Positions 7,672-11,301 of a DNA stretch of 34,543 bases are shown here, one piece after another. The position numbers were made by a program, and so were the translations under genes. Positions within the stretch are counted from its first letter, which is position 1. Each line of letters opens with the position of its first letter. Location of the stretch: positions 1-34,543 of the forward strand of contig JANXYQ010000058.1 in NCBI GenBank assembly GCA_025355995.1, in the 5' to 3' direction. Under the pieces are notes generated by a model. It made no database searches, was not told the origin of the DNA, and worked only from the letters and a program-made list of their open reading frames with translations. The DNA is from Spirochaetaceae bacterium (GTDB taxonomy: Bacteria > Spirochaetota > Spirochaetia > Treponematales > Rectinemataceae).

Positions 7672-8493
7672 ATGCTTTCGCGCGTGGAGAAGGATAGGCT
7701 GAACCTCTATTTCCCCCTGTGCATCGACGGCGGCCTCGGCCCGGAGCTGCAAAAGGGCGCCATCGCCCTCAGGGACTACCTGCGGCCTCGCTGCGCCTTC
7801 TCGGAGCCGGCCGAGGACGCGATATGCGATCCCGCAATAGCGCGCGGCGTCGTCGGCTACGAGGCTATCCGCCGAAGGCTCGCCGACGCGCGCTCGACGC
7901 TGGCCGGGCTGGGTTCCGAGCGGGTCTTCGCCGCGGGCGGCGGCTGCGGGATAGAGGTGGCTATCGTGGGCCACCTCCTGCGAGCCCGCCCCGGTCTCAG
8001 GGTGCTGTGGTTCGACGCCCACGGCGACCTCAACACGCCCGAGTCCTCGCCGAGCGGCCATTTCCACGGCATGCCCCTGCGCTTCCTCCTCGAGCCGGGA
8101 CTGGACCAGGCGATCTCCGCCGGCGCGCCCGCCCTGGATCCCGCCGGCCTGCGCCTCGTCGGGACCCGCGACCTGGACCCGCCCGAGGAGGCCTATATAG
8201 CCGCGAGGCGCATCCGAACTTTCGGCCCTGCCCGGGCGGCCGAAGCCGCGGCCGGCTGGGAAGGCGGTCCCGTCTACGTCCACTTCGACCTGGACGCCCT
8301 CGATCCCCGCGAGTACCCCAACGTCAAATGCCCCGTCCCCGCCGGGATATCCATCGCCGCGGCCGCCGAGATGATAGGCGGCCTGGCCCGCTCGCGCGCC
8401 CTCGTCGGCATGAGCATCGTCGAGAACGTCGCGACGGACGGGGCGACGCTCGCGCGGCTCGAGCCGCTCTTCGAGCTGGCCCTCGGCCTGTGA
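7672..8493 (+). CDS. Arginase/agmatinase-family protein
   Basis: 273 aa. Ureohydrolase fold: WFDAHGDLN (Asp115, His117, Asp119) and VHFDLDALDP (Asp206, Asp208) supply five of the six usual binuclear-Mn ligands. The GGDHS motif of arginases is GGGCG here, with Cys92 at the position of the first metal-binding His. A 'GGDCG' variant occurs in an uncharacterised arginase-like group as I recall, so this is probably a subfamily trait, while the Asp-to-Gly change is unusual. Expected to hydrolyse an amidine or guanidino compound in the cytoplasm; the substrate cannot be told. GGAGG (7665-7669) is only two bases before ATG 7672, so GTG at 7684 is an alternative start. Two stem-loops follow the stop. 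Confidence 0.8.
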   Translation: MLSRVEKDRLNLYFPLCIDGGLGPELQKGAIALRDYLRPRCAFSEPAEDAICDPAIARGVVGYEAIRRRLADARSTLAGLGSERVFAAGGGCGIEVAIVGHLLRARPGLRVLWFDAHGDLNTPESSPSGHFHGMPLRFLLEPGLDQAISAGAPALDPAGLRLVGTRDLDPPEEAYIAARRIRTFGPARAAEAAAGWEGGPVYVHFDLDALDPREYPNVKCPVPAGISIAAAAEMIGGLARSRALVGMSIVENVATDGATLARLEPLFELALGL

Positions 8494-8505
8494 TTCGCGC
8501 GCGGA

Positions 8506-8530
8506 TCCATACCTCGAAGCCCTGTATGGA
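8506..8530 (+). repeat. Stem-loop after the arginase gene
   Basis: TCCATAC (8506-8512) pairs with GTATGGA (8524-8530) across an 11-base loop, starting 13 bases after the stop. It has no T-run, so it is an mRNA 3'-end hairpin or weak terminator at most. Confidence 0.45.
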
Positions 8531-8554
8531 CCCGCCTACAATCCATTCCTCCCA

Positions 8555-8589
8555 GAACGAACGATACCTCGCGGCTGCGAGGTTCGTTC
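8555..8589 (+). repeat. Long inverted repeat upstream of the asn leader promoter
   Basis: The arms are GAACGAA...CCTCGC (8555-8561 and 8567-8572) and GCGAGG-TTCGTTC (8577-8589) around loop GGCT. The 13 paired bases are broken only by a five-base bulge (CGATA). It ends nine bases before the -35 box of the leader promoter. It could terminate the arginase transcript (no T-run) or act as an operator; nothing decides between them. Confidence 0.5.
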
Positions 8590-8597
8590 ATCCCCGG

Positions 8598-8626
8598 TTG
8601 ACGTCCGGCTCGCGCCGGTGTATTCC
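8598..8626 (+). promoter_or_regulatory. Promoter of the asn leader/asnS unit
   Basis: TTGACG (8598-8603), a 17-base spacer and TATTCC (8621-8626) predict a transcription start at about 8633, which is the A of the leader ATG. The -35 box is good and the -10 box weak. If correct, the leader peptide is translated from a leaderless mRNA. Confidence 0.5.
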
Positions 8627-8632
8627 TCTCGT

Positions 8633-8713
8633 ATGCGACTGATCGCCGGCGCCAATAATAATGCCTCCGCCAACAATGCGGCCCGTACGGGGCAGCGGGG
8701 GAATGACGCGTAG
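8633..8713 (+). CDS. Asn-rich leader peptide of asnS (attenuation control)
   Basis: A 26-codon frame ending in TAG 8711-8713. Asn occupies residues 8-10 (AAT AAT AAT), 14-15 (AAC AAT) and 24 (AAT). Six Asn in 26 is far above normal, and AAT is otherwise uncommon in this GC-rich window, where AAC is preferred. The frame starts at the predicted transcription start, ends 25 bases before a strong Rho-independent terminator, and asnS begins 98 bases after the stop. This is the classic layout of ribosome-mediated attenuation (as in the pheST or his leaders of enterobacteria): scarce Asn-tRNA would stall ribosomes on the Asn codons and favour read-through into asnS. A GGGGC at 8690-8694 can pair with GCCCC of the terminator 5' arm as one possible antiterminator contact. 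There is no clear Shine-Dalgarno site; GTG 8618 is an in-frame alternative. Confidence 0.75.
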   Translation: MRLIAGANNNASANNAARTGQRGNDA

Positions 8714-8738
8714 GCGAACCGAAAGACGGCTCGACCAG

Positions 8739-8765
8739 GGCGCCCCTCCGGGGGCGCCTTTTTTT
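8739..8765 (+). terminator. Attenuator terminator before asnS
   Basis: GGCGCCCC (8739-8746), loop TCCG and GGGGCGCC (8751-8758) make an eight-bp GC stem followed at once by seven T (8759-8765). It lies between the Asn-rich leader and asnS, 45 bases before the asnS start, so it can only serve asnS as a conditional stop. Confidence 0.88.
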
Positions 8766-8810
8766 ATCTCATCCGAGCGATCGGGCGCGGCGACGCACCA
8801 AGGGGGAGAC

Positions 8811-10097
8811 ATGTACGCACAGGCCAAGGATCTGAGATCGCTCGTGGGAAGCGAGGTGGAGATGCGTGGATGGATAGCCTCGAAGAGGGCCTCGGGCGGG
8901 GTCGCCTTCTTGACCCTGCGCGACGGTTCGGGTTTCGCGCAACTCGTCTGCGAGCGCGGCGTCCTGCCTGAGCCTGAGTTCGAGGCCGCCAAAATGGCCT
9001 TCGTCGAGACCCCGGCCCTGGTCGCGGGCAGGGTCGCGCTGCCGGAGGGGAGGGACCGGCCCGAGCTGAAGGCGAGCTCCATCCGCCTCCTGCCCTCGGA
9101 GCAGGGCTTCCCCATCGGGAGGAAGGAGCACGGCCCCGAGTTCCTGATGGACCAACGGCACCTCTGGCTGCGCTCGCCGCGCCAGGCCGCCTGCCTCCGC
9201 ATACGCAGCTCCCTCGAGTTCGCCTGCGCCGAATTTCTCCATCGCGAGGGCTTCCACCGCTTCGACTCCCCGCTGATCACGCCCACCGCCTGCGAGGGGA
9301 CGACCGAGCTCTTCGAACTCGACTATTTCGGCTCCCCCGCCTACCTCTCCCAGAGCGGCCAGCTCTACGCCGAGGCGGGCATCGCCGCCCTCGGCAAGGT
9401 CTACACCCTCGGGCCCTGTTTCCGGGCCGAAGCCTCGAACACCAGGCGGCACCTCACCGAGTTCTGGGGCGTCGAGCCCGAGATGGCCTGGGTGGGTGCG
9501 GAGGAGAACATCGCCTTCCAGGAGCGCTTCATCAGGGCCGTCCTCGCGAAGGTCGCCGACGAGGCCGCCGAGGACCTGGCCTTCGTCGGCAGGGACCCGG
9601 CCGCCCTGCGCTTCGACGCTCGGCCCTTCCCCGTCATGCTCTACGACGAGGCCCTGGCCATGCTGGGCCGCTCGGGAAGGGAGCTCGCCTGGGGCGAGGA
9701 CCTCGGGGTCGAGGACGAGGAGGAGCTGACGAAATCCTTCGACAGGCCCTTCTTCATCTACAAGTACCCGGTGGCCTGCCGCGCCTTCTACATCGAGCCC
9801 GATCCCGCGGATCCGAGGCTGGCGCTCTCTAGCGATTGCCTCATGCACGGCGGCTTCGGCGAGGTCATCACCGGAGGCCAGCGCGCCTCGGACTGCGCCT
9901 TCCTTCGGGGCAGGATCGAGGAGCACGGCCTCAGGCTCGCCGATTTCGAATGGTACCTCGACCTCAGGCGCTTCGGCTCGGTGCTGCACTCGGGCTTCGG
10001 CATGGGCATAGAGCGCATGCTGCGCTGGATCTGCGGCATCCATCACATACGCGAGGCCATCCCCTTCGCGCGGACGCCCAGCCGCTGCCGCCCCTAG
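8811..10097 (+). CDS. asnS: Asparaginyl-tRNA synthetase
   Basis: 428 aa, within the usual bacterial range. It charges tRNA-Asn with asparagine in the cytoplasm. An N-terminal OB-fold anticodon-binding domain occupies about 1-95 (MRGWIASKRASGG, 'FLTLRDGSG'). The class II catalytic core follows: motif 1 around 'GFHRFDSPLITPTACEG' (147-163), motif 2 FRAEASNTRRHLTEFW (204-219) and motif 3 GFGMGIERM near 396-404. The AsnRS rather than AspRS assignment rests on the short length without the bacterial AspRS insertion domain, and is supported by the Asn-rich leader. AGGGGGAG precedes ATG 8811. The open frame extends upstream to 8661, but that part overlaps the leader and terminator and is not coding. 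It overlaps the convergent gene at 10094 by four bases. Regulation is by the upstream attenuator. Confidence 0.93.
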   Translation: MYAQAKDLRSLVGSEVEMRGWIASKRASGGVAFLTLRDGSGFAQLVCERGVLPEPEFEAAKMAFVETPALVAGRVALPEGRDRPELKASSIRLLPSEQGFPIGRKEHGPEFLMDQRHLWLRSPRQAACLRIRSSLEFACAEFLHREGFHRFDSPLITPTACEGTTELFELDYFGSPAYLSQSGQLYAEAGIAALGKVYTLGPCFRAEASNTRRHLTEFWGVEPEMAWVGAEENIAFQERFIRAVLAKVADEAAEDLAFVGRDPAALRFDARPFPVMLYDEALAMLGRSGRELAWGEDLGVEDEEELTKSFDRPFFIYKYPVACRAFYIEPDPADPRLALSSDCLMHGGFGEVITGGQRASDCAFLRGRIEEHGLRLADFEWYLDLRRFGSVLHSGFGMGIERMLRWICGIHHIREAIPFARTPSRCRP

Positions 10098-10741
10098 TAC
10101 CTCATCCTGAAGCCCATCATCCCGGGACCGAGCAGGGGCTTGAGCTCGACCTTGCCCGACTCGATCCCGGCCCGGGCCTCGTCGAGGGCGTTCTTCGCGG
10201 ACCATACCCGCCAGACCATGTCCAGGGCCATGCCGCCGGCCATGGCCGCCATCGAAGGCAGGTAGTCTTGGAGGCTGATGCCCTCCCAGCTCGCCTTGAT
10301 CGTCGAGAAGGGAGAGGTGTAATAATTGAGCTGGTCGAATTTCAGCCGCGAGGGTAGGAGGAGATACCAGGCTGCCGCCGTTCCCGCTATGGTGGCCACG
10401 TGGGCTGCCGCGAAGAGGCCGCCGTCCAGGCCGTCGCCGTTCTTGAGCTGGCCGCGTCCCGGGAACCTCATGGACGCGCCCATGGACGAGCGTATCCACG
10501 CGTCCTTGCGAGCCGCGATGGCCAGCCTCTCGGCCCAGGCTTCCACCTCGGTCCCGGTCAGTTCGCCGAGGCTCTTGCCCGCGAACTCGGCCTTGAGCGC
10601 GTCGATTTCGGCGCTCTCGTACTGGTTCAGGAAAGTATGGCGGGAGGGGCCCGGCCCTTGGCGGGCGCCCATCATCGGCTGCGCGAATGCCGCGGCGGAA
10701 AGAAGCATGGCGACGGCCGCGAGGATCGGAAAACGTTTCAT
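10094..10741 (-). CDS. Secreted or membrane-associated protein of unknown function
   Basis: 215 aa, not recognised. The start at ATG 10741 is supported by GGAGG seven bases upstream and by a clean signal peptide (MKRFPILAAVAMLLSAAAFA, cut before QPM). The mature part has an alpha-helical N-terminal section rich in acidic and basic residues (about 35-90, 'YESAEIDALKAEFAGKSLGE'). A hydrophobic segment 'FAAAHVATIAGTAAAWYLLLP' (about 115-137) may span the membrane, and a second, less hydrophobic stretch near 165-185 (YLPSMAAMAGGMALDMVWRV) follows. The gene is convergent with asnS (four-base overlap) and divergent from the nitroreductase. No enzymatic motif is visible. Confidence 0.75.
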   Translation of the reverse strand: MKRFPILAAVAMLLSAAAFAQPMMGARQGPGPSRHTFLNQYESAEIDALKAEFAGKSLGELTGTEVEAWAERLAIAARKDAWIRSSMGASMRFPGRGQLKNGDGLDGGLFAAAHVATIAGTAAAWYLLLPSRLKFDQLNYYTSPFSTIKASWEGISLQDYLPSMAAMAGGMALDMVWRVWSAKNALDEARAGIESGKVELKPLLGPGMMGFRMRY

Positions 10742-10809
10742 GTAGGCCTCCGTTCTAGAATATACTGGTTTTGATTCGCCTCGTGGCGAGGCAAAGGCGG
10801 GCTGAGGGC
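10742..10809. promoter_or_regulatory. Divergent control region with hairpin
   Basis: This 68-base gap separates the secreted-protein gene (minus) from the nitroreductase (plus). It holds TATACT (10761-10766), a plausible plus-strand -10 box, and a perfect inverted repeat GCCTCG-TGG-CGAGGC (10778-10792) that could be an operator. GAGGG just before ATG 10810 is the nitroreductase ribosome-binding site. No convincing -35 box was found on either strand. Confidence 0.4.
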
Positions 10810-11301
10810 ATGGACGCGATTGAGGCAATTCATCGGAGAACGAGCGTACGGAAGTACCTGGATCGAGAGATACCGCGGGAGACCCTGGAGGAACTCGCAG
10901 ACTGCGCCCGGTTCGCGCCGAGCGGCTACAACAAGCAGCCCTGGGTTTTCGTGGTCGTGACGGAGAGGGCCCTCCTGCGGGAAATAGGCGCGACGGCGAA
11001 GTACGGCCGATTCATCGCGGAGGCCGGAGCCTGCGTCGCCATCGCCTCGTCCGCGAGCGAGACGATGATCGAGGACGCCTGCGCCGCCGCGGAGAACATC
11101 ATCGTCGCCGCGTGCTCGCGCGGGATCGGCAGCTGCTGGGTCAATTCCTTCCGCCAGCGGCACTCGAGGGCCGTCGAGTCCCTGCTCCGCTTCCCCTCGG
11201 GATACAAGCTCTCCGTCCTCCTCTCGCTGGGCTATCCCGCGGAGGATGAGCGTCGACCCAAGAAGGCCCTGGCCGAGGTCCTGCGCTGGAACGGTTTCTA
11301 G
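10810..11301 (+). CDS. Nitroreductase-family FMN oxidoreductase
   Basis: 163 aa, on the short side for the family. It is a flavoprotein reducing nitro compounds, quinones or similar acceptors with NAD(P)H, normally as a cytoplasmic dimer. The N-terminal FMN-binding run RRTSVRKYLDREIPRETLEE and the 'FAPSGYNKQPWVFVVV' segment are diagnostic, followed by 'AAENIIVAACSRGIGSCWV' (FMN contact helix and loop) and a C-terminal 'SVLLSLGYPAEDERRPKKAL'. The frame is open further upstream (to 10771), but ATG 10810 has GAGGG before it and begins exactly at the family's usual N-terminus. It stands alone between divergent and convergent neighbours. Physiological substrate unknown. Confidence 0.88.
   Translation: MDAIEAIHRRTSVRKYLDREIPRETLEELADCARFAPSGYNKQPWVFVVVTERALLREIGATAKYGRFIAEAGACVAIASSASETMIEDACAAAENIIVAACSRGIGSCWVNSFRQRHSRAVESLLRFPSGYKLSVLLSLGYPAEDERRPKKALAEVLRWNGF

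Follow-up and report, generated by a model that had tools for sequence, protein, structure and literature searches.

What controls a gene for asparaginyl-tRNA synthetase (AsnRS) that is preceded by a short asparagine-rich reading frame and a terminator? This question is raised by a 34,543 nt stretch of DNA from a Spirochaetaceae bacterium (GCA_025355995.1, contig JANXYQ010000058.1, positions 1-34,543, forward strand; hereafter the window), for which attenuation of the synthetase gene by a ribosome translating the short frame had been predicted.

The gene downstream of the leader encodes a second AsnRS

The gene asnS2 (8811-10097, plus strand) encodes a second, Thermus-type AsnRS of 428 amino acids. 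Its product passed the cut-offs of both NCBIfam AsnRS equivalogs (PRK03932: 449 bits, cut-off 414; TIGR00457: 378.5 bits, cut-off 342.6) and retains class II motifs 2 and 3 (FRAE..RH and GFGMGIER). The nearest PDB match was the 438-aa AsnRS 5zg8 (E 2.8e-128), which we take to be the T. thermophilus enzyme. A canonical, longer AsnRS is encoded on contig C126 of the same genome and is 41% identical to the asnS2 product over the matched part. Since the second-type enzyme is present in only three of 30 genomes of the source spirochaete family, asnS2 is regarded as an accessory gene. We suggest that this spare AsnRS acts as an emergency enzyme that is turned on when the supply of Asn-tRNA breaks down, for instance upon inhibition of the housekeeping AsnRS. 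Within 500 nt upstream of the canonical asnS of the source genome and of five relatives no Asn-rich frame was found, and no such leader-terminator arrangement was seen there. The end of asnS2 overlaps by 4 nt with a convergent 244-aa frame on the minus strand (10094-10828), for which neither Pfam nor NCBIfam gave a match.

An Asn-rich leader frame and an intrinsic terminator precede asnS2

The leader frame (MRLIAGANNNASANNAARTGQRGNDA, followed by a stop codon) lies at 8633-8713 on the plus strand and comprises 26 codons, six of which encode Asn: three consecutive AAT codons at 8654-8662, AAC AAT at 8672-8677 and a sixth Asn codon, AAT, at 8702-8704. Among the short frames of the window (10-40 aa, n=249) the next best contains four Asn. 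When the window was subjected to dinucleotide shuffling, a six-Asn short frame occurred in none of 60 shuffles, and the mean count of frames with at least five Asn was 0.017. The scarcity of AAT that had been pointed out for the window is borne out by the neighboring genes, as asnS2 contains no AAT and two AAC codons and the upstream arginase gene no AAT and four AAC codons.

The frame is followed on the same strand by an intrinsic terminator (8737-8765) with an 8-bp GC stem (GGCGCCCC/GGGGCGCC, 8739-8746/8751-8758), the loop TCCG and a run of seven T (8759-8765). A consensus scan of 8400-8900 detected this terminator and no second one, with 0.3 expected in shuffles. The Shine-Dalgarno-like sequence AAGGGGGAG of asnS2 is located at 8800-8808 (plus strand). 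The 26-codon frame with five AAT among its six Asn codons, the GC hairpin with its seven T and the gene start at 8811 were thus all found as the original prediction had described them.

Because asnS of Firmicutes is, as a matter of general knowledge, often under T-box control, we considered that a T-box or another RNA element might sense uncharged tRNA-Asn directly, the frame being incidental. However, Rfam yielded no match up to an E-value of 1 in 8480-8830, and in ten related loci only tRNAs were matched. A T-box riboswitch, for which stem I, a specifier loop and the T-box sequence would have been required, was rejected on this basis. The leader RNA in front of asnS2 moreover measures only about 130 nt, most of it occupied by the Asn frame, and the only conserved parts are this frame, its stop codon and the terminator. 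Direct sensing of the tRNA is in our view highly improbable, and sensing by a ribosome that translates the frame is preferred.

The arrangement is conserved in the second-AsnRS clade

The second-AsnRS clade has six known members, namely the window, L031 (genome G017), L032 (genome G015), L033 (GWB1_60_80), L034 and the distant L113, and the clade received an SH-aLRT support of 100%. In each of the six, five of which lie outside the source genome, the gene is preceded by a short Asn-rich frame and then a terminator. Loss of the Asn-rich frame from relatives that keep the terminator would have refuted the original prediction; both elements were kept throughout. Three of the six (L031, L033 and L034) harbor two modules in tandem, with a separate Asn frame and terminator in each, as exemplified by the L031 leaders MRMIHLGADNKGLDNNAPANGGRRVVA and MIHARRPYHPLSLFAVNNTNSNNPRPA, each ending in a stop codon. 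Near the inner Asn run of L033 a good in-frame ATG is missing, and this run may be broken or initiated at a rare codon. The leader sequences of the clade differ (e.g. MDFRGSVATLNNRLANNSTPRGCRRGA, MQRTVHDKYAILNNNGSPNNGC and MILKTDSNITNFFNYNNHQVMRGPVY) and, outside the Asn runs, barely permit alignment, whereas the enzymes share about 59-72% identity with the AsnRS2 of the window; it is therefore the arrangement that selection kept. The more distant Thermus-type AsnRS genes of other spirochaete families (L114-L125) showed no such leader. When 119 relatives were searched with a pattern for additional leaders with Asn runs, matches were no more frequent than with the reversed control; the gap of the pattern, fixed at 6 nt, was too narrow.

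These comparisons bear on the possibility that the terminator merely ends the transcript of the arginase gene, which lies on the same strand and ends at 8493, 240 nt upstream, and that the Asn-rich frame arose by chance. Against this speak the recurrence of an Asn frame before the terminator in all six members of the clade and once more in the inner modules of the tandem loci, the promoter-like site located between the arginase gene and the leader (see below), and the failure of shuffled sequences to reach a six-Asn frame. Mainly by the recurring frame of the relatives, a chance origin is refuted to the extent that we consider it scarcely tenable, and the frame and terminator are further treated as parts of one attenuator.

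Asn-rich leaders are found before AsnA-like and tRNA-Asn genes

When the leaderless sites of three genomes were scanned for short frames with terminators, an AsnA-like locus was reached on contig C612 of G017 (L273, 1900-2480, minus strand), where the gene is preceded by two Asn-rich leaders in tandem, both with terminators. The best family of its product is asparagine synthetase A, albeit below the cut-off (113 versus 309 bits), and its match to archaeal AsnA (structure 3p8t) is weak. In G032 and G012, homologues are also preceded by an Asn-rich frame and a terminator (L276, MTKRALRQANLLNSNPTAAAAGPEPRA; L277, MKLHIGSLNNRLNNNPDRMAGSEPCMQS; both with a stop codon), which brings the number of related genomes with this arrangement to three.

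In Patescibacteria, an Asn leader and a terminator are followed by a tRNA-Asn(GTT) gene and then by asnS (L037, 2240-2500; L038, L039 and L148), the leaders being MSYQKHNNNNNDNNRFMDR, MRYKRNNNNNNNNRVTTR, each with a stop codon, and similar ones. The label Patescibacteria was assigned to L039 and extends to the others by membership of the same order. A promoter-like site for asnS is located behind the tRNA-Asn gene in these loci; as asnS thus seems to own a promoter, the immediate target of the leader is the tRNA-Asn gene. On the tree the leader trait needs at least three changes (starred branches); L149, which was misframed, was excluded from this reading. With asnS2, the AsnA-like gene and tRNA-Asn plus asnS as targets, all target types are asparagine genes. 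From sequence alone and without expression data, it would appear that the device controls genes beyond asnS2, forming a putative asparagine regulon.

A leaderless short frame of another kind (MSTRDLRSSILIHGRRSTGA.. or MISFDLRSYLLVNERRTTGA..) with a strong terminator was observed before a gene for a ribosome-protection-type ABC-F ATPase (L178 on G017:C147 and L274/L252 on G015:C100), which has the appearance of a spirochaetal attenuator that responds to antibiotics.

The mRNA of the leader is probably leaderless

A promoter-like site was identified at 8598-8626 (plus strand), with a -35 box TTGACG (8598-8603), a 17-nt spacer and a -10 box TATTCC (8621-8626). Only TCTCGT separates the -10 box from the leader ATG at 8633, so that the box ends 6 nt upstream of the start codon. 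According to the earlier claim, this promoter places the transcript start on the leader ATG. TATTCC is a weak match, and the consensus scan of 8400-8900 did not list the site, but the relatives show a better -10 box at the same place with the same spacing to the leader ATG, for which reason the promoter of the window was accepted. The start itself remains inferred.

In most first modules 6 nt (in a few 7-9 nt) separate the end of the -10-like box from the leader ATG, whereas Shine-Dalgarno sites are present at the inner modules of L031, L034 and the AsnA-like gene (AAGGAAG, AAGGAGGA and AAGGAGG). From these features it is inferred that translation of the leader probably proceeds on a leaderless mRNA in the first module and in the usual way in the second. 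The pattern TTGAC..TANNNT..ATG matched 46, 32 and 44 times in G000, G017 and G015, the reversed pattern 0, 1 and 0 times; going by this count, leaderless mRNAs seem to be common in the source spirochaete family.

Two further observations were made around such starts. An inverted repeat without a T run (GAACGA...ACCTCGC/GCGAGGT..TCGTTC, 8554-8594) is located just upstream of the -35 box and may serve as an operator or mark a T-less end of the transcript from the arginase gene. In the Patescibacteria loci L327, L328 and L331, very short leaderless frames were seen 100-200 nt before a putative rpoB, the resemblance of which is by N-terminal sequence only.

Antiterminator pairing is predicted in most modules

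For RNA folding, the ribosome was placed at the first Asn pair, covering 15 nt from the codon start, and the RNA was folded up to the 5' arm of the terminator. This stall point was used uniformly; the last Asn codon was unsuitable since the sixth Asn of the window lies near the stop codon. With the ribosome stalled, most of the terminator 5' arm is predicted to pair upstream in most modules, with the end of the leader frame and often overlapping the stop codon (e.g. CCGGUCUGA:UCAGACCGG in module 2 of L034 and GGACCGGU:ACCGGUCC in the Patescibacteria locus L037). With the ribosome modelled at the stop codon, the antiterminator stretch is covered and few pairs are left in most modules. The antiterminator pairing exceeded that of dinucleotide shuffles (p<0.05) in 10 of 17 modules. 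The combined p-value for the 13 non-Patescibacteria modules was 1.3e-6, which is generous, as related sequences were treated as independent. In module 1, region 2 and the 5' and 3' arms of the terminator co-vary (C/G/C in L031, U/A/U in L032). Of the four AsnA-like modules, the two in G017 were without a clear antiterminator and a third (G032) was weak.

In the window, the fold of the RNA free of the stalled ribosome contains a candidate 1:2 hairpin inside the leader frame (GCGGCCCGUACGGGGCAGC, 8678-8696, plus strand), which is a prediction only. A candidate antiterminator strand (CGGGGCAGCG, 8688-8697, plus strand) would pair with the terminator 5' arm GGCGCCCCU (8739-8747) at -14.2 kcal/mol. 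This pairing is no better than in shuffles of the GC-rich sequence (p 0.69), nor does the fold of the whole leader surpass that of shuffles (z -0.9). Antiterminator and terminator folds that exclude each other, which had been suggested as a check on attenuation, are hence clear in most relatives but weak in the window, where the antiterminator rests on the relatives and the alternative pairing is inferred.

The missing statistical support in the window leaves room for control of asnS2 by translation-dependent Rho action, by mRNA processing or by a small peptide acting in trans. Action in trans is at odds with peptides that are not conserved outside the Asn runs; further, a strong intrinsic terminator is never lacking, and its distance from the stop codon is kept at about 21-37 nt across modules. 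We consider these routes unlikely, if a little less so than the other alternatives, and retain attenuation at the terminator as the preferred reading.

Proposed mechanism of asnS2 control

According to the model, transcription by RNA polymerase would begin at or near the A of the leader ATG, and the leaderless leader would at once be engaged by a translating 70S ribosome. With plentiful Asn-tRNA, the ribosome would pass the NNN..NN stretch, reach the stop codon and cover the antiterminator strand, so that the terminator at 8737-8765 could form and asnS2 would remain untranscribed. If Asn-tRNA is short, the ribosome would stall on the Asn codons; the RNA between these codons and the terminator would then be available for pairing with the terminator 5' arm, and with this arm sequestered the polymerase would read into asnS2 and more AsnRS would be made.

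We hold with high confidence that asnS2 is subject to asparagine-specific, ribosome-mediated transcription attenuation, as was originally predicted. The prediction gains its support from the frame and terminator kept in the whole clade, while stalling and read-through are still inferred in the absence of transcript, ribosome-profiling or starvation data. Tandem Asn codons, an intervening terminator, a downstream gene for the same amino acid and an arrangement conserved despite sequence change are features of the trp, his and pheST kind, and by mechanism the system is very probably a trp/his-type attenuator with asparagine as its specificity. Beyond what had been predicted, the gene is a spare AsnRS, its leader is probably leaderless, the attenuator is doubled in some relatives, and Asn leaders also precede AsnA-like and tRNA-Asn genes.

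Comparison with known attenuators

No asparagine-specific leader attenuator was found in Rfam 15, and neither the window nor any of ten related loci was matched by its His, Leu, Thr, Trp and Phe leaders. In a literature search that left most subscription journals outside its coverage, we found no asparagine attenuator, no leader-peptide attenuators in spirochaetes or the Candidate Phyla Radiation, and nothing joining leader peptide, attenuation and asparaginyl-tRNA synthetase; an earlier description is possible. Attenuators with amino-acid leaders are known for a handful of amino acids, in Proteobacteria, Actinobacteria and some Firmicutes.

The closest parallel is the pheST attenuator of enterobacteria, in which a Phe-rich leader precedes phenylalanyl-tRNA synthetase. 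Both systems share a leader with codons for the amino acid loaded by the downstream synthetase, a terminator in between and a proposed stall-dependent antitermination, whereas asnS2 differs in its amino acid, its accessory enzyme, the probably leaderless start, the tandem attenuators of some relatives and its occurrence in Spirochaetota. In Bacillus subtilis thrZ, a second ThrRS is encoded behind tandem T-boxes. As is proposed for asnS2, a spare synthetase is induced here when its charged tRNA runs short, and several terminators follow one another, as in some relatives of the window; but the T-box reads the tRNA directly, while the sensor of asnS2 would be a translated leader and a T-box is absent.

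Leader peptide attenuators were predicted in Streptomyces before trpS2 and leuS (PMC1262725), which are likewise tRNA synthetase genes, trpS2 being also a second enzyme copy; they concern other amino acids and another phylum, and asparagine is not mentioned in that study. His attenuators have been described in Firmicutes (PMC9413887). The ilvBNC attenuator of Corynebacterium glutamicum, whose leader is treated as a leaderless mRNA, resembles that proposed for asnS2 in this respect and in its terminator and antiterminator, but it is a single attenuator of a biosynthetic operon for branched-chain amino acids (PMC11857589).

Set against these systems, we think it reasonably likely, with less assurance than for asnS2 itself, that Asn-specific leader attenuation is an unrecognised class that was gained at least twice, in Spirochaetota and Patescibacteria, with leaderless leaders and serial attenuators before AsnRS2 and AsnA-like genes and a position directly before tRNA-Asn in Patescibacteria. 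If so, leaderless translation in these phyla would be fast enough to be coupled to termination, and a tRNA gene truly under leader-peptide control in Patescibacteria would provide direct feedback on decoding capacity, since the Asn-rich peptide would then govern how much there is of the tRNA needed to decode it. The existence of asparagine attenuators in these two phyla would extend both the amino acids and the phyla in which attenuators of this kind are known.
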